Source: Cryobacterium cryoconiti
Lineage (GTDB): Bacteria; Actinomycetota; Actinomycetes; Actinomycetales; Microbacteriaceae
Length of the DNA stretch: 64,000 bases
Direction of reading: 5' to 3'
Assembly (NCBI RefSeq): GCF_004403065.1
Contig: NZ_SOHA01000014.1
Location: 1 to 64,000 of the forward strand
Shown piece by piece: positions 2,075-37,211 of this stretch (position 1 is the first letter of the stretch; every line of letters starts with the position of its first letter). Under the pieces are notes generated by a model. That model worked only from the letters and a program-made list of their open reading frames with translations, had not been told where the DNA came from and did not search any database. A program made the translations under genes and the position numbers.

Positions 2075-3097
2075 TTGGACGGTAACGCAACGACGACGCA
2101 CCGGAACGTCGTTCTGCTCTCGGTGGCGAGCGAGCTCGCCCCGCAGATCACCACGTCGGTGGACATCGACCGTCGCTTGCAACCGGCCCTGAAACGACTC
2201 AAACTGCCGAGCGGGCTGCTCCAGCGGGTGGCCGGCGTGCACGAGCGGCGCAACTGGGCTCCCGGCCAGGCCTTCGACGACGCGGCCGTCACGGCCGGCA
2301 AGCGCGCCCTGGCCGCGGCCGGCATCGAACCGGGCCAGGTCGGCCTGATGATCAACACCTCGGTGACCCGCAAGCATCTCGAACCCTCCGTCGCCGTGCG
2401 CATCCACCACGGTCTCGGACTGCCCTCCTCGGCCACGAACTTCGACATCGCGAACGCCTGCCTCGGCTTCGTCAACGGCATGACCCTGGCTGCCCAGCTG
2501 ATCGACTCCGGCCAAATCGACTACGCGGTGATCATCGACGGCGAAGACGCCGACGAGATCCAGACCAACACCATCGAACGGCTCGGCCGGCCGGACATCA
2601 GCCGCAAGGATTTCATGAGCGAGTTCGCGAGCCTGACGCTCGGCTCCGGGGCGGCCGCGGCCGTGCTCGGGCGGGCCGACCGGCATCCGGAGGGCCACCG
2701 CATCCTCGGCGGCGTCACCCGGGCCGCGACCCAGTTCAACGGACTCTGCGTCGGCAGCGTCGACGGCATGTTCACCGACGCGAAGGCACTGCTGAAGGGC
2801 GGCATGGAGCTCGTCGTCTCGGCCTGGACCGAGGCCAAGCGCGACTGGAACTGGTCGGGCATGGACCGCTACATCCTGCACCAGGTGTCTGATGTGCACA
2901 CCAACGCCATCGTGAAGGCGACCGGGCTGGACCGCAGCCGGGTGCCGCTCACCTACCCTTTGTTCGGCAATGTGGGTCCCGCGTCGATCCCGATCACCCT
3001 CGCCGGGGAAGCCGGCACCCTCAAGCGCGGCGACCGCGTGCTCCTGATGGGCGTCGGCAGCGGCCTCAACACGGCCATGATGGAACTCGCCTGGTGA
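2075..3097 (+). CDS. oleA: OleA, thiolase-superfamily acyl-CoA head-to-head condensing enzyme
   Basis: OleA joins two fatty acyl-CoAs in a non-decarboxylative Claisen condensation to a 2-alkyl-3-ketoacyl product, the first step of long-chain olefin synthesis. I chose the TTG at 2075 because AGGGGAA lies 8 bases before it and the resulting 340 residues match the family length; an upstream ATG at 1955 would add 40 unlikely residues. The catalytic triad is visible as Cys129 (FDIANACLGF), His269 (YILHQVSD) and Asn299 (FGNVGPASIP), with spacing close to characterised OleA. The resemblance to FabH is general, but the downstream OleB, OleC and OleD homologues decide the assignment. The stop overlaps the oleBC start (GTGA). 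A possible -10 (TAAAAT, 1943-1948) would give a leader of about 120 bases. Confidence 0.9.
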   Translation: MDGNATTTHRNVVLLSVASELAPQITTSVDIDRRLQPALKRLKLPSGLLQRVAGVHERRNWAPGQAFDDAAVTAGKRALAAAGIEPGQVGLMINTSVTRKHLEPSVAVRIHHGLGLPSSATNFDIANACLGFVNGMTLAAQLIDSGQIDYAVIIDGEDADEIQTNTIERLGRPDISRKDFMSEFASLTLGSGAAAAVLGRADRHPEGHRILGGVTRAATQFNGLCVGSVDGMFTDAKALLKGGMELVVSAWTEAKRDWNWSGMDRYILHQVSDVHTNAIVKATGLDRSRVPLTYPLFGNVGPASIPITLAGEAGTLKRGDRVLLMGVGSGLNTAMMELAW

Positions 3098-5967
3098 ACC
3101 TCGGCCCTGCCCCCGTGTCCTACCGCCTCCCGCGTGCCGCCGCGACGCCGGCGCCCGCGACCCTGCCGCCTGCCGGGCTGCCGGGGATGGACGCCGCGTT
3201 CTCCCGGCTGGTGCCGGTCGTGTCGGGGGCGTCCGGGCATCCGGTCACCCGCACCTGGCACCTGCTCGACAACGGCGACCGCCTCGCCGAACTGGGCGTC
3301 ACCCCCGTGGGCACGGTGCTCTGCGTGCACGGCAACCCGACCTGGTCCTACCTGTGGCGCGAGTTCGTGACGGCGGCGACGGATGCGGCCGCCAACGGCG
3401 GCGAGGCCTGGCGCGTGATCGCCGTCGACCAGCTCGAAATGGGCTATTCCGAACGATCGGGTGCCCGGCGCCCGCTTGCCATGCGCGTGCGGGACCTCGG
3501 TGAACTGACCGACACGCTGGGACTCTCCGGCCCGGTGGTCACCTTCGGGCACGACTGGGGCGGCTCGATCTCGCTCGGCTGGGCGCTCGACCACCCGGAA
3601 CTGCTCGCCGGGGTCATGCTGCTGAACACGGCCGTGCACCAGCCGGAGGACGCTCCCGTGCCGGCCCCGCTGCGGCTGGCCCTGCGGAGCAGCGTGCTCG
3701 GGCGTGGAACCGTGGCCACGCCGGCGTTCCTGGAGACGACGCTGGCGCTCGCGCACCCGCCGCTGCCGACCGCGGTCAAGCAGGCCTATCGCGCGCCGTA
3801 CCGCGGCGCGGCCCGGCGCGGCGGCATCGGCGCGTTCGTGGCGGACATCCCGGTGCCGGACGCACATGAGAGCGCGGCCGAACTGGCCCGGATCTCCGGC
3901 GGCATCCGTGACCTCGTCGTGCCGGCCCTGATGCTCTGGGGCCCCACCGATCCGATCTTCAGCGACCGCTACCTCGACGACCTTCTGGACCGGCTGCCGC
4001 ACGCCGACGTGCACCGCTTCGAGGGTGCCGGGCACCTCGTGATGGAGGACGTCGACTACGCCGCGGCCGCGCTCACCTGGCTCGGCGACCGTGGGCTGCC
4101 CGCAGACGCCTCCGCCGGTGGGGTTCCCGTTCCGGTCGAGAGTGCCCGTTCCGCCGGGCACTCTCGACCGGAACGGGCACACTCGGGCGCGCGGGGCGAG
4201 GGCGAGGGCGAGGGTGAGGGCGAGGGCGGCTGGGCGGCCGCCGGGCAGTATCCGCTCTGGCACTACCTCGACGAACTGCAGAACAGCGACGAGACCGCGC
4301 TGATCGACATGGCCCCGCCTGGTGGCGGCGCGCCCCGCGTCGTCAGCTGGCGGCTGCTCTCCCGGCGCGTGAGGCAGCTCGCCTGCGGCCTCGACCGCCT
4401 CGGTGTGCGCAAGGGCGACCGTGTCTCGCTGCTGATCCCGCCCGGAGCCGATTTGACCGCGGTGCTCTACGCCTGCGTGAGGATCGGCGCGATCGTGGTG
4501 GTGGCGGATGCCGGCCTCGGCCTGCGCGGGCTGACCCGCGCCGTGCGCGGCGCCCGCCCCGACCATGTGATCGGCGCCGCCCCCGGGCTGCTCGCCGCCC
4601 GGGCCCTCGACTGGCCCGGCCAGAAGATCTCCGTGGCGCGGTTTCCCCGCGCCGCGATGCGCGCCCTCGACATCTCCGCCACCCTCGCCGAGCTGATCGC
4701 GCTCGGCGTGGACGAGGAACTGCCGCCGCCGCCGGAACCCGGTGACACGGCCGCCGTGCTGTTCACGTCCGGCTCGACCGGTCCGGCCAAGGGCGTCGTC
4801 TACACGCACGGCCAGCTCGCCGCGGTCAGCCACGCGCTGTACGCGCAGTACGGCGTGGGCCGTGGCACCGGCCTGGTGGCCGGTTTCGCCCCGTTCGCCC
4901 TGCTCGGGCCGGCACTCGGCGCCCGTTCGGTGACCCCCGACATGGACGTGACGAAGCCGAAGACGCTGACCGCCGCATCCGTGGCCGCCGCGGTGGCCGC
5001 CATCGACGCGACCGTGGTGTTCCTGTCGCCCGCCGCGCTGGCGAACGTCGTCACCACCGCCGACAGCCTCACCGCCGCCGACCACGCCAGTCTTGCGGGC
5101 GTGGAGTGCTTCCTCTCGGCCGGCGCCCCGGTCTCCGAGCCACTGCTCGCCGCGGCGGCCCGGCTGATGCCGGCGGCCTCCGCACACACGCCCTACGGCA
5201 TGACCGAGGGGCTGCTGATGGCCGACATCACCCTCGACGGCATCCGCGAGGCGCTGGCCACGCGCCCACTGACTGACCCGACGTCGGCATTGTCGTCGGT
5301 TGGGTCGGCTGTCGCGTCGTCGACCCCGACGGATGTCCCGGCCGGCCCCGGCGGGGTCTGCGTCGGCCGCGCGACGGCGACCACGCGCATCCGCACGAGC
5401 GCCCTCGACGCCCGGGGCCGTGCCACCGGCGAACTGTCCGAGGTTGCCGGCGTCACCGGCGAGATCGTGGTCTCCGCGCCCCACGTCGAAGACCACTACG
5501 ACCGCCTGTGGCTGACCGACCGGGCCGCCCGCCGCGGCGCCGTGCCCGGCGAACGCTGGCACCGCACGGGCGACGTCGGACACCTCGACACGGCCGGACG
5601 ACTCTGGGTGGAGGGCCGCCTGCCGCACGTGATCACGACCGCGGCCGGCGTGCTCACCCCGGTCGGCCCCGAGCAGCGCGTCGAGTCCGTCGCCGCGGTG
5701 GCCCGGGCCGCCGTGGTCGGGATCGGCCCGGCCGGCACCCAGCAGGTGGTGGTCGTGGTCGAGACCGTCACGCCGGCCCGCCGGGTCGCGCTGGCCGACC
5801 CCGAGCTGGCCGCCGCCGTGCGCGCCGCCGCGGGTCTTCCGCTGGCCGCGGTTCTGGTCGTGCCGCACCTGCCCACGGACATCCGTCACAACTCGAAGAT
5901 CGACCGCACCCGGCTGGGCCGCTGGGCCGGCGGCATCCTCTCCGGTGCCCGGATGACTCGCCCGTGA
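3094..5967 (+). CDS. oleBC: OleBC fusion: beta-lactone decarboxylase plus beta-lactone synthetase
   Basis: This 957-residue protein fuses two steps of olefin synthesis. Residues 1 to about 335 are an alpha/beta-hydrolase of the haloalkane-dehalogenase type (OleB), with nucleophile Asp154 in FGHDWGGS and His314 in GAGHLVMED. Residues from about 385 are an AMP-binding enzyme (OleC) with the phosphate-binding loop TSGSTGPAKG starting at residue 558 and the TGD motif near residue 827. OleC closes the beta-hydroxy acid to a beta-lactone and OleB removes CO2 to give the cis-olefin. OleBC fusions are known from Actinobacteria. The linker (about 340-385) is odd: it contains an in-frame palindromic repeat (4126-4177) and five Gly-Glu repeats (4195-4224). 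GTGA overlaps link it to oleA and oleD. Confidence 0.92.
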   Translation: MNLGPAPVSYRLPRAAATPAPATLPPAGLPGMDAAFSRLVPVVSGASGHPVTRTWHLLDNGDRLAELGVTPVGTVLCVHGNPTWSYLWREFVTAATDAAANGGEAWRVIAVDQLEMGYSERSGARRPLAMRVRDLGELTDTLGLSGPVVTFGHDWGGSISLGWALDHPELLAGVMLLNTAVHQPEDAPVPAPLRLALRSSVLGRGTVATPAFLETTLALAHPPLPTAVKQAYRAPYRGAARRGGIGAFVADIPVPDAHESAAELARISGGIRDLVVPALMLWGPTDPIFSDRYLDDLLDRLPHADVHRFEGAGHLVMEDVDYAAAALTWLGDRGLPADASAGGVPVPVESARSAGHSRPERAHSGARGEGEGEGEGEGGWAAAGQYPLWHYLDELQNSDETALIDMAPPGGGAPRVVSWRLLSRRVRQLACGLDRLGVRKGDRVSLLIPPGADLTAVLYACVRIGAIVVVADAGLGLRGLTRAVRGARPDHVIGAAPGLLAARALDWPGQKISVARFPRAAMRALDISATLAELIALGVDEELPPPPEPGDTAAVLFTSGSTGPAKGVVYTHGQLAAVSHALYAQYGVGRGTGLVAGFAPFALLGPALGARSVTPDMDVTKPKTLTAASVAAAVAAIDATVVFLSPAALANVVTTADSLTAADHASLAGVECFLSAGAPVSEPLLAAAARLMPAASAHTPYGMTEGLLMADITLDGIREALATRPLTDPTSALSSVGSAVASSTPTDVPAGPGGVCVGRATATTRIRTSALDARGRATGELSEVAGVTGEIVVSAPHVEDHYDRLWLTDRAARRGAVPGERWHRTGDVGHLDTAGRLWVEGRLPHVITTAAGVLTPVGPEQRVESVAAVARAAVVGIGPAGTQQVVVVVETVTPARRVALADPELAAAVRAAAGLPLAAVLVVPHLPTDIRHNSKIDRTRLGRWAGGILSGARMTRP
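4126..4177. repeat. 52-bp palindromic repeat (copy A) inside the oleBC linker
   Basis: Two perfectly complementary 23-base arms (4126-4148 and 4155-4177, starting CCCGTTCCGGTCGAGAGTG) flank a 6-base loop (TTCCGC). The copy at 24819-24870 has an identical left arm, one difference in the right arm, the same loop size, and the same trailing CACACTCG. Here it is translated as about 17 residues between OleB and OleC. Confidence 0.9.
4195..4224 (+). repeat. Hexanucleotide repeat encoding (Gly-Glu)5 in the OleBC linker
   Basis: Five copies of GGCGAG (one GGTGAG) encode residues 368-377 as alternating Gly-Glu. It directly follows the palindrome and probably forms a flexible acidic hinge. Such short repeats can change length by slippage without breaking the frame. 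Confidence 0.85.
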
Positions 5968-6932
5968 GGGTGCTCGTCACCGGGGCCAGCGGCTTCCTCG
6001 GCCGGGCCGTCGCGGCCGAGATCGCGGCCGCCGGGCACGAGGTGCGCACGTTCCAGCGCCGCCCGTCGGGCGTGCCCGGCGTCACCGACCTGCTCGGCTC
6101 GGTCACCGTGCCGGCCGAGGCCCGGCTCGCCGTCGCCGGCATGGACGCGGTCGTGCACCTGGCCGCCAAGGTGTCCCTCGCGGGCAGTCCGGCCGATTTC
6201 GTCGCCGTGAACGTGGGCGGCACCCGCTCCCTGCTGGCCGAGGCCACGGATGCCGGAGCCTCCCGTTTCGTGTTCGTGTCCTCGCCCTCGGTGGCCCACG
6301 CCGGGGCATCCATTGTCGGCAGCGACGCCGACCCGGCCGACCCGGCCCGCGCTCGCGGGCCCTACGCCCGCACCAAGGCCGAGGCCGAACTGCTCGCTCT
6401 CGCCGCGGACTCGGCGCGCCTGCGCGTGGTCGCCGTGCGCCCGCACCTGGTCTGGGGCCCCGGCGACACCCAGCTCGTGGCCCGGATCGTGGAGCGCGCC
6501 CGCGCCGGGCGCCTGCCGCTGCTCGGTCACGGCGCCGCCCTGATCGACACCACCTACATCGACAACGCCGCCTCGGCGATCGCCGCCGCCCTCGAGCAGG
6601 CCGACGCCGTGCACGGCAACTCCTACGTGATCACGAACGGCGAGCCGCGGCCGGTCGCCGAGCTGCTCGCGGGGATGTGCCGGGCCGCGGGCGTGCCGGC
6701 TCCGGCCTGGCGGGTGCCGGCCGGCGTCGCCCGCGGTGCGGGGGCGCTGATCGAGGCGGCCTGGGCCGTCCGCCCGGGCGTCGACGAGCCGCCGATGACC
6801 CGGTTCCTGGCCGAGCAGCTCTCGACCGCGCACTGGTTCGACCAGCGCCGCACCCGGACCGAGCTCCGCTGGACCCCCGCGGTGAGCCTCGATGAGGGCT
6901 TCCGCCGCCTGGCCGCGTCGTACGACCGCTAG
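5964..6932 (+). CDS. oleD: OleD, NAD(P)H-dependent 2-alkyl-3-ketoacid reductase
   Basis: OleD reduces the OleA product to the 2-alkyl-3-hydroxy acid that OleC then lactonises. The GTG at 5964 overlaps the oleBC stop (GTGA), giving 322 residues; the open frame extends further upstream, but only this start places the Rossmann motif TGASGFLGRAV at the N-terminus. The extended-SDR catalytic tyrosine and lysine are Tyr134 and Lys138 in GPYARTKAE, and VFVSSPS supplies the conserved serine region. It is the last gene of the ole cluster and is followed by a hairpin at 6952-6983. Confidence 0.9.
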   Translation: MRVLVTGASGFLGRAVAAEIAAAGHEVRTFQRRPSGVPGVTDLLGSVTVPAEARLAVAGMDAVVHLAAKVSLAGSPADFVAVNVGGTRSLLAEATDAGASRFVFVSSPSVAHAGASIVGSDADPADPARARGPYARTKAEAELLALAADSARLRVVAVRPHLVWGPGDTQLVARIVERARAGRLPLLGHGAALIDTTYIDNAASAIAAALEQADAVHGNSYVITNGEPRPVAELLAGMCRAAGVPAPAWRVPAGVARGAGALIEAAWAVRPGVDEPPMTRFLAEQLSTAHWFDQRRTRTELRWTPAVSLDEGFRRLAASYDR

Positions 6933-16951: not shown

Positions 16952-16986
16952 GGTCGAGCCTGTCGAGACCCGAGCCTGTCGAGACC
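16952..16986. repeat. Two copies of the GTCGAGCCTGTCGAGAC dispersed repeat
   Basis: GGTCGAGCCTGTCGAGACC (16952-16970) and a second shortened copy (16971-16986) lie between convergent genes. The same unit forms arrays at 29251-29388 and 37067-37204. Confidence 0.85.
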
Positions 16987-23871: not shown

Positions 23872-24794
23872 GACTCCGCATTTTCACCGAACCGCAGCAG
23901 GGTGCTTCGTACGATGACATCCTCGCCGTGGCCCAGGCCACGGAGACGCTCGGCTTCGACGCGTTCTTCCGCTCCGACCACTACCTCGCCATGGGCGACA
24001 CTGCCCCCGGCCTGCCCGGGCCGACGGATGCCTGGACCACCCTGGCCGGCCTCGCCCGGGAGACCCGGCGCATCCGCCTGGGCACCCTGGTCTCGTCGGT
24101 GACCTACCGGCCGCCGGGGATTCTCGCGATCCAGGTCGCGCAGGTCGACCAGATGTCGGGCGGGCGGGTCGAGCTCGGGCTCGGCACCGGCTGGTTCGAG
24201 CAGGAACACCTGGCCTACGGCATCCCATTCCCGGCCAAGCGGTTCGGCATGCTCGAGGAGCAGCTGGAGATCGTGACCGGCCTCTGGGATACCCCGGTCG
24301 GCGACCGCTACAGCTTCACCGGCGAGCATTACACCCTCGTCGACTCACCTGCCCTGCCCAAGCCCGTGCAGGCCCGCATCCCGGTGATCGTGGGCGGCGG
24401 CGGCGCCAAACGCACCCCGGCCATGGCGGCCCGCTTCGCCACCGAGTTCAACCTGCCCTTCCCCGACTTCACGGATGTCCCGGCCAAGTTCGCTGGCGTG
24501 CGCGCGGCCTGCGAGGCCATCGGCCGCGATCCCCGTGAGCTCGTCTATTCGGCCGCCCTGATCGCCGTCGCGGGTGCGGACGAGGCCGATTTCGCCCGCC
24601 GGGCCGCGGCCGTGGGCCGGGAGCCCGCCGAGCTGCGGGCGCACGGCGTGGCCGGCACCGCATCCGAGGTCGTGGACCGCCTCGGCGCGCTCTCGGATGA
24701 CGGGGTTGAGTGCGTCTACCTGCAGATCATGGACCTGTCCGACCTCGACCACCTGGACTTCATCGCCCGCGAGGTCATGCCCCAGCTCGCCTGA
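23868..24794 (+). CDS. LLM-class F420-dependent oxidoreductase
   Basis: A 308-residue luciferase-like TIM-barrel protein: MRLRIFTEPQQGASYDDI, GFDAFFRSDHYLA, IRLGTLVSSVTYRPP, the non-prolyl-cis region, GRVELGLGTGWFEQEH and PVIVGGGGAKRTPAMAARFA all fit the actinobacterial F420-type LLM family. Substrate unknown; such enzymes reduce or oxidise diverse small molecules. ATG 23868 overlaps the stop of the methyltransferase gene by four bases, so the two are co-translated, an unusual pairing. A strong palindrome follows its stop. Confidence 0.9.
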   Translation: MRLRIFTEPQQGASYDDILAVAQATETLGFDAFFRSDHYLAMGDTAPGLPGPTDAWTTLAGLARETRRIRLGTLVSSVTYRPPGILAIQVAQVDQMSGGRVELGLGTGWFEQEHLAYGIPFPAKRFGMLEEQLEIVTGLWDTPVGDRYSFTGEHYTLVDSPALPKPVQARIPVIVGGGGAKRTPAMAARFATEFNLPFPDFTDVPAKFAGVRAACEAIGRDPRELVYSAALIAVAGADEADFARRAAAVGREPAELRAHGVAGTASEVVDRLGALSDDGVECVYLQIMDLSDLDHLDFIAREVMPQLA

Positions 24795-24818
24795 TCGCCC
24801 TCTCGCTCCCGCACAGTG

Positions 24819-24870
24819 CCCGTTCCGGTCGAGAGTGCCCGCTGCGCCGGTCACTCTCGACCGGAACGGG
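24819..24870. terminator. 52-bp palindromic repeat (copy B) between convergent genes
   Basis: Left arm 24819-24841 and right arm 24848-24870 pair with one mismatch around a 6-base loop (CTGCGC); the outer GTG/CAC extend it to 24816-24873. It nearly matches the copy inside oleBC (4126-4177), including the trailing CACACTCG. Here it can act as a bidirectional terminator. Confidence 0.85.
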
Positions 24871-24886
24871 CACACTCGCGATGAAG

Positions 24887-28252: not shown

Positions 28253-29238
28253 TTCATGCCTTTCGGGCGGACGCGCAGCTTGCGGTCGGCGGTGCCCGCG
28301 ATGCGGCGGGTGATGAGGAAGTTGATCACCGCGATGAGGATGATGATCAGGAAGAGCAGCCAGGCCACGGCGGACGCCCGGCCGAAGTTGCGCTGGTTCC
28401 AGCCGAGTTCGTAGATGTAAAGGGTGAGTGTCTGCCATTGGCGACTGGCCCCGCCCTGGCCGACGTTGTCGAACATGCGCGCCTCGTCGAAGATCTGCAG
28501 ACCGCCGATCGTCGAGGTCAGGATGACGAAGATGATGATCGGGCGCAGCAGTGGCAGGGTGATCGACCGGAAGGTGCGCCAGCGGTTGGCGCCGTCGATG
28601 ATGGCGGCCTCGTAGTAGTCCCGCGGGACGGCCTGCATGGCGGCCAGGAAGATGAGGGCGTTGTAGCCCGTCCAGCGGAAGTTCACCATCGTGGCGATGG
28701 CGATATGGCTGGGGATCACGTCGACGTGCCAGCGGATCGGCTCGAGCCCGAGGCTCATGATGCCGCTGTTGATGAGCCCGTACTTGTCACCGAAGAGGTC
28801 GTTGAAGATCAGTGCGACCGCGACCGGGGCCACGACATAGGGCAGGAGTACGCCCATACGCCAGAAGGTCTTGCCGCGCAGGTTGAAGTCGAGCACGGCG
28901 GCGATGCCGAGCGCGATCAGTACCTGGGGAATGCTCGAGAGCAGGAAGATGCTGAAGGTGTTGCGGAGGGAGTTCCAGAAGTACCCCTGGGTCAGCACCG
29001 TGACGAAGTTCTCCAGACCGACGAAGTCGCCCTGGCCGCCGATGAGGTTCCAGTCGTGCACCGACACCCAGGCCGTGTACAGCAGGGGGAAGAGGCCCAT
29101 GACTCCGAAGACGAGGAAGAAGGGAGAGATGTACAGGTAGGGCGAGAAGCGCACATCCCAGCGGCTCAGCTTGTGGCTGAGGGCGATGCGGCGGATGCTG
29201 CGGGCATTCACCTCGGCGGCGGCGGCGGCGGTGGTCAT
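28249..29238 (-). CDS. CUT1 sugar ABC transporter permease (MalF type)
   Basis: A 329-residue permease with six to seven hydrophobic segments starting YLYISPFFLVFGVMGLFPLLYTAWVSVHDW and the EAA loop VPRDYYEAAIIDGANRWRTFRSITLPLLRP. The ATG at 29238 has AAGGA six bases upstream. Between it and the binding-protein gene lies a 238-base gap with a six-copy minisatellite and a strong hairpin, which may lower permease expression relative to the binding protein. Confidence 0.92.
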   Translation of the reverse strand: MTTAAAAAEVNARSIRRIALSHKLSRWDVRFSPYLYISPFFLVFGVMGLFPLLYTAWVSVHDWNLIGGQGDFVGLENFVTVLTQGYFWNSLRNTFSIFLLSSIPQVLIALGIAAVLDFNLRGKTFWRMGVLLPYVVAPVAVALIFNDLFGDKYGLINSGIMSLGLEPIRWHVDVIPSHIAIATMVNFRWTGYNALIFLAAMQAVPRDYYEAAIIDGANRWRTFRSITLPLLRPIIIFVILTSTIGGLQIFDEARMFDNVGQGGASRQWQTLTLYIYELGWNQRNFGRASAVAWLLFLIIILIAVINFLITRRIAGTADRKLRVRPKGMK

Positions 29239-29250
29239 GAACAGTCCTTC

Positions 29251-29388
29251 GGTGGTTGAGCGTGTCGAAACCCGGTGGTCGAGCCTGTCGAGACCCGGTG
29301 GTCGAGCGTGTCGAGACCCGGTGGTCGAGCCTGTCGAGACCCGGTGGTCGAGCCTGTCGAGACCCGGTGGTCGAGCGTGTCGAAACCA
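29251..29388 (-). repeat. Six tandem 23-bp units inside the ABC transporter operon
   Basis: The unit begins GGTGGTCGAGCCTGTCGAG (plus strand). Boundaries are 29251, 29274, 29297, 29320, 29343 and 29366; copies differ only at GAGCCTG/GAGCGTG and a few G/A positions. There are no spacers. It is the array form of the repeat also seen at 16952 and 37067. Confidence 0.93.
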
Positions 29389-29424
29389 GGGCGGTCGAGC
29401 CGGGAGAGCCGGCCGGGACCGGGG

Positions 29425-36344: not shown

Positions 36345-37064
36345 GTGGTTTTGACTCGACGCTTCCGTATCGGCGTTGTCGTACTTGTCCTCGGCGGCCT
36401 GGTCGCCGGAACGGCCGCGGTGGCCTCGATGGGCGCGGACGAGCCCACGGCCTCGGCCACCCCGACGCCGGATCCCACGGAGGCCGCCTCGACGAATACC
36501 GCGTCCGGAACCGGCGCGACGGAGGCTGACGCAACGGAGCCGGAGCGGGCCGAGCCTGCCGACGCCGGAGAGCCCGTTGCCGTCGACGCCCAGGCGCAGG
36601 CCCAGGTGGACTACATGCTCGCCTACTGGACCGACTACAACACCGACGCCTACGGCGTGATCACCGACAACGACTGCGTCAACTTCACCAGCCAGTCCCT
36701 GATCGAGCGGGGCTGGACCATGGACGACCAGTGGTGGTCCGAGGGAACCGGCTCCGACTTCGACACGTCCTCGCCCTGGATCAGTTCCACCGCGTTCCGG
36801 GATTACGTCGCGCAGTCCGGCCGGGCCACGGCTCTGACGGATGACCAGCGCGACCAGGTCAAGATCGGTGACGTTGCCCAGTTCGACTGGGACAATTCGG
36901 GCGACCGCGACCACACCGGGGTGGTCACCCGGATCGAGGGTTCCGGAGACGACATCCAGATCTACTACGCCGGACACACCGACGACACCGACTACCGGTC
37001 GGTGGACTACGCGATCACCGAGAAGCACCCGGGCGCCACGGCGTACTACTGGAGCATTCCCTAG
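36345..37064 (+). CDS. Secreted amidase-domain (Amidase_6) protein
   Basis: A 239-residue exported protein: TM/signal segment FRIGVVVLVLGGLVAGTAAVA, a Thr/Glu/Asp-rich spacer to about residue 75, then the Amidase_6 domain with Cys in NDCVNFTSQSLIERGW, DVAQFDWDN and His in RDHTGVVTRIEG, the cysteine-peptidase-like pair. Family members are thought to act on peptidoglycan or peptides. It follows the VanY-type gene on the same strand, suggesting a cell-wall context. GTG 36345 is chosen because it starts just before the basic signal region. The proposed structured leader is immediately upstream. Confidence 0.82.
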   Translation: MVLTRRFRIGVVVLVLGGLVAGTAAVASMGADEPTASATPTPDPTEAASTNTASGTGATEADATEPERAEPADAGEPVAVDAQAQAQVDYMLAYWTDYNTDAYGVITDNDCVNFTSQSLIERGWTMDDQWWSEGTGSDFDTSSPWISSTAFRDYVAQSGRATALTDDQRDQVKIGDVAQFDWDNSGDRDHTGVVTRIEGSGDDIQIYYAGHTDDTDYRSVDYAITEKHPGATAYYWSIP

Positions 37065-37066
37065 CG

Positions 37067-37204
37067 GGTCTCGACAGGCTCGACCGCCGACAGGCTCGAC
37101 CGCCGACGCGGGTCTCGACAGGCTCGACCGCCGACAGGCTCGACCCCCGACAGGCTCGACCACCGACAGGCTCGACCACCGCGGTGATCGAGCCTGTCGA
37201 GATC
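37067..37204. repeat. Array of GACAGGCTCGAC repeats ending in an inverted copy
   Basis: Seven forward copies of CGACAGGCTCGACC-type units, some with the full GGTCTCGACAGGCTCGACC, are followed by one reversed copy (GATCGAGCCTGTCGAGATC, 37186-37204). The last copy can pair with any forward copy. It fills the gap between convergent genes and may terminate both. Confidence 0.88.
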
Positions 37205-37211
37205 CGGCGCG

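Follow-up and report, generated by a model that had tools for sequence, protein, structure and literature searches.

A dispersed palindromic repeat in frame at the OleB–OleC joint of Cryobacterium cryoconiti

How did a long, perfect palindrome come to be translated in the middle of a fused enzyme? In the 64,000-nt stretch of Cryobacterium cryoconiti DNA analyzed here (the window), a perfect 23/6/23 palindrome at positions 4126–4177 lies wholly within the oleBC reading frame (Table 1). The initial annotation had read it as translated sequence within the OleBC linker, which is exact to the base. Assuming independent bases at the GC content of the window, only about 1.5 × 10−7 perfect 23-bp stems with loops of 3–10 nt are expected by chance per 64 kb. 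We think that the palindrome is probably a nonautonomous REPIN- or MITE-like dispersed repeat, usually intergenic, that was captured in frame at a place where additional residues do no harm and that is turned over by in-frame gain and loss. This reading is supported directly by the many copies of the element, their fixed architecture, the in-frame placement, presence and absence among close relatives, and other repeats in the same linker elsewhere. The linker itself is predicted to be disordered.

Table 1. Features of the window discussed in the text
Feature	Positions	Strand	Remarks
oleA-like thiolase-fold gene, upstream of oleBC	2075–3097	+	
oleBC, OleB (alpha/beta-hydrolase, PF00561) fused to OleC (AMP-binding enzyme, PF00501)	3094–5967	+	957 aa
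OleB–OleC linker, residues 338–383, predicted disordered	4105–4242	+	pLDDT <50, ordered domains either side
Family-A element in oleBC, translated as VPVPVESARSAGHSRPERAHS	4123–4185	+	63 bp
Palindrome left arm	4126–4148	+	23 nt
Palindrome loop	4149–4154	+	6 nt
Palindrome right arm	4155–4177	+	23 nt
oleD-like NAD-dependent reductase gene, downstream of oleBC	5970–6932	+	
Family-B copy GGTCGAGCCTGTCGAGACC, intergenic	16952–16970	+	family common in relatives' OleBC linkers
Second family-A copy of the window, intergenic	24816–24878	+	between convergent genes
Family-B tandem array of GGTCGAGCCTGTCGAGACC, intergenic	29277–29387 (noted over 29227–29410)	+	23-bp period
Family-B copies, intergenic	37067–37204	.	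both orientations

The oleBC palindrome and its family

Pfam places the alpha/beta hydrolase of OleBC at residues 74–318 and the AMP-binding domain at 397–741. In an AlphaFold2 model built with 32 sequences, pLDDT is below 50 at residues 338–383 (the part that includes the translated element) and also at 1–8 and 728–749. OleBC as one gene is described for Gram-positive bacteria in parts of PMC7158056, and the words "linker" and "Cryobacterium" are absent from the main text of that paper. Directly upstream of oleA lies an aldehyde dehydrogenase gene (PF00171) at 2–1888.

A near-identical copy of the palindrome is found at 24819–24870, between genes that converge on it and end at 24794 (+) and 24887 (−). 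Its left arm is identical to that in oleBC, its right arm differs at one position, and the CACACTCG tail is common to both, all as first annotated. The two sites could have been the only ones, alike by chance. They are not, as the window's own genome (G000 in our set of 57 genus genomes, itself included) holds at least 40 copies: a DNA query gave 80 strand-wise matches, and 40 of 65 first-look candidates were scored. An Rfam search with the hairpin matched only microRNA models, all below the curated cut-offs, which we take as chance. An origin from a phage or plasmid was rejected for want of a match in phage or plasmid collections.

We call the repeat family A. It is built of a pair of 18-nt arms, inverted copies of CGAGAGTGCCCGTTCCGGTCGAGAGTG, that flank a 14-nt centre, and nearly all copies have this fixed architecture. 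The whole element is about 63–68 bp long, with terminal inverted repeats; outside the copies, palindromic similarity fades outward. Allowing up to two mismatches, the 18-nt arm pattern matches 79 times in G000 (a reversed control, 0 times), and these matches resolve into 37 pairs (74 arms, 32 bp from start to start) and five single arms. Across many genomes, an ungapped 50-mer fits 139 of 141 copies with at least 26 of 36 arm positions matching. Where arm positions are altered (212 in all), 29 are altered on both sides to another Watson–Crick pair. The element was matched in 27 of the 57 genomes.

The copies lie mostly between genes, as judged with a home-made codon-usage gene caller. Among 40 copies in G000, 36 are intergenic (15 between convergent, 16 between tandem and five between divergent genes), two are at contig edges and two are intragenic. 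A set of 141 copies, made up of loci taken by similarity rank and leaving out OleBC and the methyltransferase locus for most genomes besides G000, comprises 52 convergent, 66 tandem, 13 divergent and five edge copies, four inside genes and one partly inside. The coding share of the window is about 89%, yet only these four copies and the partial one are intragenic. Of the four, two are in OleBC (G000 and G051), one is in a fused methyltransferase gene of G000, and one lies close to the C-terminal end of a gene in G039. Both mid-gene loci of G000 are in-frame linkers of fused two-enzyme proteins, one joining OleB to OleC and the other a methyltransferase to an FAD monooxygenase.

Intergenic copies also differ between relatives. 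The region of the 24816 copy was matched in 52 of 57 genomes, and both flanks were found in 26 of the 30 loci inspected. At this site a family-A arm is present in G000, G030, G029 and G039 (with a 604-nt gap), and absent in G007, G009, G027 and the remainder.

Repeats in OleBC linkers across the genus

An OleBC match was found in 55 of the 57 genomes, and 54 linkers were extracted (that of G039 was left out because its contig ends there). Between tblastn anchors, all 54 have lengths that are multiples of three, ranging from 48 to 384 nt. Six contain family A, 22 contain a second family (B), one contains B together with a third (C), one (G025) C alone, and 24 none of the families A to D; reversed-pattern controls gave 0. 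Family B is hence in the linkers of 23 genomes. With family A in only six of 54 linkers (G000, G030, G029, G002, G015 and G051), the palindrome is not a conserved coding feature of OleBC genes in the genus.

Close relatives lack the element: G007, G009 and G027, whose proteins are about 90% or more identical, have no family A in the linker. The linker DNA of the nearest sister, G007, cannot be aligned across the gap, and the relatives compared yielded no clean empty site. G008 has no hairpin, but the bases beside the site match those at the outer edge of the element in G002. Codon shuffling points to possible scars in G027 (0.005, uncorrected for 54 tests), G009 (0.055) and G008 (0.065), the latter two not significant singly.

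The other families are also dispersed repeats, with all controls at 0. Family B is matched in 52 of 57 genomes, with as many as 482 matches in one; family C has 65 and 97 in its two carriers, and family D, in three Agreia genomes, has between 90 and 413. Genomes whose linkers carry B have more B matches than the others (median 62 versus 7, n = 23 and 31, Mann–Whitney p = 1.3 × 10−4, uncorrected for relatedness). There are exceptions: G000 has 236 B matches at up to one mismatch and a linker without B, and the B-scored linkers of G019, G026, G034, G036 and G050 come from genomes with one to five matches. Family D is found in two Agreia OleBC linkers (L176 and L209), and L168 has a similar peptide. 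The L176 and L209 linkers are built from the repeat CCCTGAGCCTGTCGAAGGG, which has 413 and 218 matches in their own genomes. In the window, the B cluster at 37064–37206 lies between convergent genes and also contains 16-bp sub-repeats.

These observations can be put together as follows. Family-A copies would land in or near genes, and selection would remove nearly all intragenic landings. Landings in the OleB–OleC linker would survive if the frame stays open, because added residues are presumably tolerated there, and later in-frame slippage or deletion may remove them again. Such in-frame turnover would leave the linker holding a repeat that is abundant in its genome. In OleBC, the element is most likely dispensable. 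The initial annotation had proposed that a non-coding, REP-like element jumped or was recruited into the fused gene without breaking its frame. The element is indeed dispersed, mainly intergenic and in frame; the jump, presumably by transposition, we infer, no mobilizing enzyme having been identified.

One could also argue for a single, ancient in-frame insertion in the ancestor of a clade of 16 genomes, followed by several losses, with gene conversion involving intergenic copies keeping the survivors alike. We regard this as a real possibility without favoring it. All six OleBC copies have the same frame and the same orientation, and the possible scars in G027, G009 and G008 would fit past losses. 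On a tree built from OleBC, the methyltransferase and the monooxygenase, the carriers do not form a clade, yet they all fall within the supported clade of 16 rows; a topology test does not firmly reject a single clade of carriers and sisters (11 rows; p-AU 0.08). Against an ancient insertion stand the losses it needs, in the clade's five B-carrying genomes as well as in G007, G009, G027 and G008, and the minimum of five changes between presence and absence of family A on the tree. The copies are also too alike. The arms of G000 and G029 are identical at 35 of 36 positions, compared with 389 of 585 four-fold sites (66%; binomial p = 8 × 10−6), and those of G000 and G030 at 35 of 36, compared with 518 of 656 (p = 0.002), both tests taking sites as independent. 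Hence, neutral vertical descent alone is insufficient, and conversion or selection has to be added to an ancient insertion; recent insertion would fit as well.

It is improbable that the element is a bidirectional transcription terminator copied by chance into a gene. Its convergent and tandem placement, often near gene ends, would suit a terminator, and divergent gaps are under-used (13 of 131 copies versus 14 of 34 window gaps of at least 50 bp, p = 6.5 × 10−5). However, convergent gaps are not significantly over-used (52 of 131 versus 9 of 34, p = 0.17), and the oleBC copy has to be transcribed through, as the OleC half is downstream. The copy at 24819, which had been thought to look like a terminator, has no T-run, and a terminator scan was empty there and around 4126. 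The initial annotation had also suggested that the hairpin may cause pausing between the two domains. That selection keeps it because it slows transcription or translation there is likewise improbable: it is very stable and sits exactly between the domains (sense RNA fold −60.2 kcal/mol versus −33.0 ± 3.4 for 200 shuffles, z = −7.9), and the G000 and G029 arms are alike despite their diverged four-fold sites, but the sister G007 lacks it, as do 48 of the 54 linkers of the genus, and 25 of the 54 have neither A nor B.

Recruitment of the repeats in a fixed frame was also considered and rejected. All 90 of 90 occurrences of the motif GGTCGAG in linkers are translated as Val-Glu, but the same holds for 48 of 49 occurrences elsewhere in OleBC and for 21 of 21 in window genes. 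Ordinary codon usage therefore explains it.

A second fused gene

Capture of the repeat in frame, the reading we prefer for oleBC, has a counterpart at the second mid-gene locus of G000. There, a single ORF of 674 aa encodes a methyltransferase (PF08241) and an FAD monooxygenase (PF01494), with the copy at their junction. The pair is fused in 10 of the 57 genomes and scored as separate in 47, including the doubtful G008, whose methyltransferase match is split into two parts that lie in different frames. Many of the unfused pairs overlap slightly, with the downstream start just ahead of the upstream stop. With G008 left out, the tree requires at least two changes in fusion state.

By pattern, a family-A arm is at the joint in five of the 10 fused genes (G000, G027, G029, G039 and G051) and in one of the 47 unfused pairs (the doubtful G008). 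Including decayed copies judged by eye, the counts become six of 10 and at least five of 47. The sixth fused case is G007 (33 of 36 arm matches), and the unfused tails judged to have an A-like stretch, the four for which arm matches were counted, are those of G012, G023, G040 and G052 (25–31 of 36). Another dispersed palindrome is at the fused joint in G002 and G015, and nothing was recognized in G009 and G030.

One could speculate that dispersed palindromes have made fusion proteins in this genus. Where one gene overlaps the next, family A would land in the C-terminal tail of the first, its length would shift the frame into the downstream gene, and the pair would become one protein with the element as a disordered interdomain linker. 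We consider this rather unlikely. The unfused pairs that bear the element count against insertion alone being sufficient for fusion.

Two further observations concern this locus. A further dispersed palindrome family, beginning TGCGCCGCTGCGCGGGTGG, is found in the fused linkers of L244 (2194–2277) and L249 (2146–2229), with similar pieces in up to 15 loci. The fusion locus L010 (1–2741) adjoins a chalcone/stilbene-synthase-like gene (PF02797), which suggests a type III polyketide cluster.

Comparison with known repeats

The 54 orthologous linkers are a natural series of dispersed repeats entering, decaying in and leaving one protein joint. They let the tolerance of linkers to mobile DNA, and a possible part of such DNA in gene fusion, be measured. 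In a partial literature search we found nothing relevant on REPs or palindromes in Cryobacterium or Microbacteriaceae, and no earlier mention of the family-A element or of OleBC linkers that contain repeats.

Family A resembles MITEs in being short, nonautonomous, bounded by inverted repeats and present in many copies. It differs in that G000 yielded no parent transposon sharing its ends; there, the arm pattern recovers only the tight pairs and the single arms.

REPINs are paired REPs that are moved by a RAYT. Family A is like them in having two inverted arms at fixed spacing and many, mostly intergenic, copies. It differs in two respects. First, a search for Y1_Tnp (RAYT, PF01797) gave no match in any of the 57 genomes, G000 included, with a positive control that matched in five of 14 named genomes; this argues against mobilization by a RAYT and marks a Cryobacterium palindrome family without an identified mover. 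Second, the GTAG or CGTC end tag, part of the definition of REPs given in sections of PMC3733652, is absent from the family-A consensus and the inspected copies. The same sections describe REPs as short multicopy palindromes, mostly between convergent or same-direction genes and sometimes in ORFs, and report that recB genes of Xanthomonas carry different REPs at nearly the same position.

The enterobacterial RU/ERIC repeats are, according to parts of PMC2759123, small mobile repeats that can be fused in frame within ORFs, in one case apparently removing the normal stop codon. These fusions are described there as lying at protein ends, with no repeats within conserved domains, whereas family A sits at the joint between two domains.

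By description, family A can also be likened to the Rickettsia palindromic elements. Portions of PMC10969869 and PMC3733652 present these as palindromic repeats found in frame in unrelated protein genes and tolerated by the protein, and family A is likewise in frame in two unrelated genes. It is shorter than the length of about 150 bp given in PMC10969869, its host is a GC-rich actinobacterium, and both mid-gene loci in G000 are interdomain linkers of fused enzymes. That palindromes can be carried in frame within genes is thus already established from the Rickettsia elements, REPs and ERIC. What is new here is the actinobacterial host, the finding that a single interdomain linker can harbor several families of repeats, and another fused gene with such elements at its joint.
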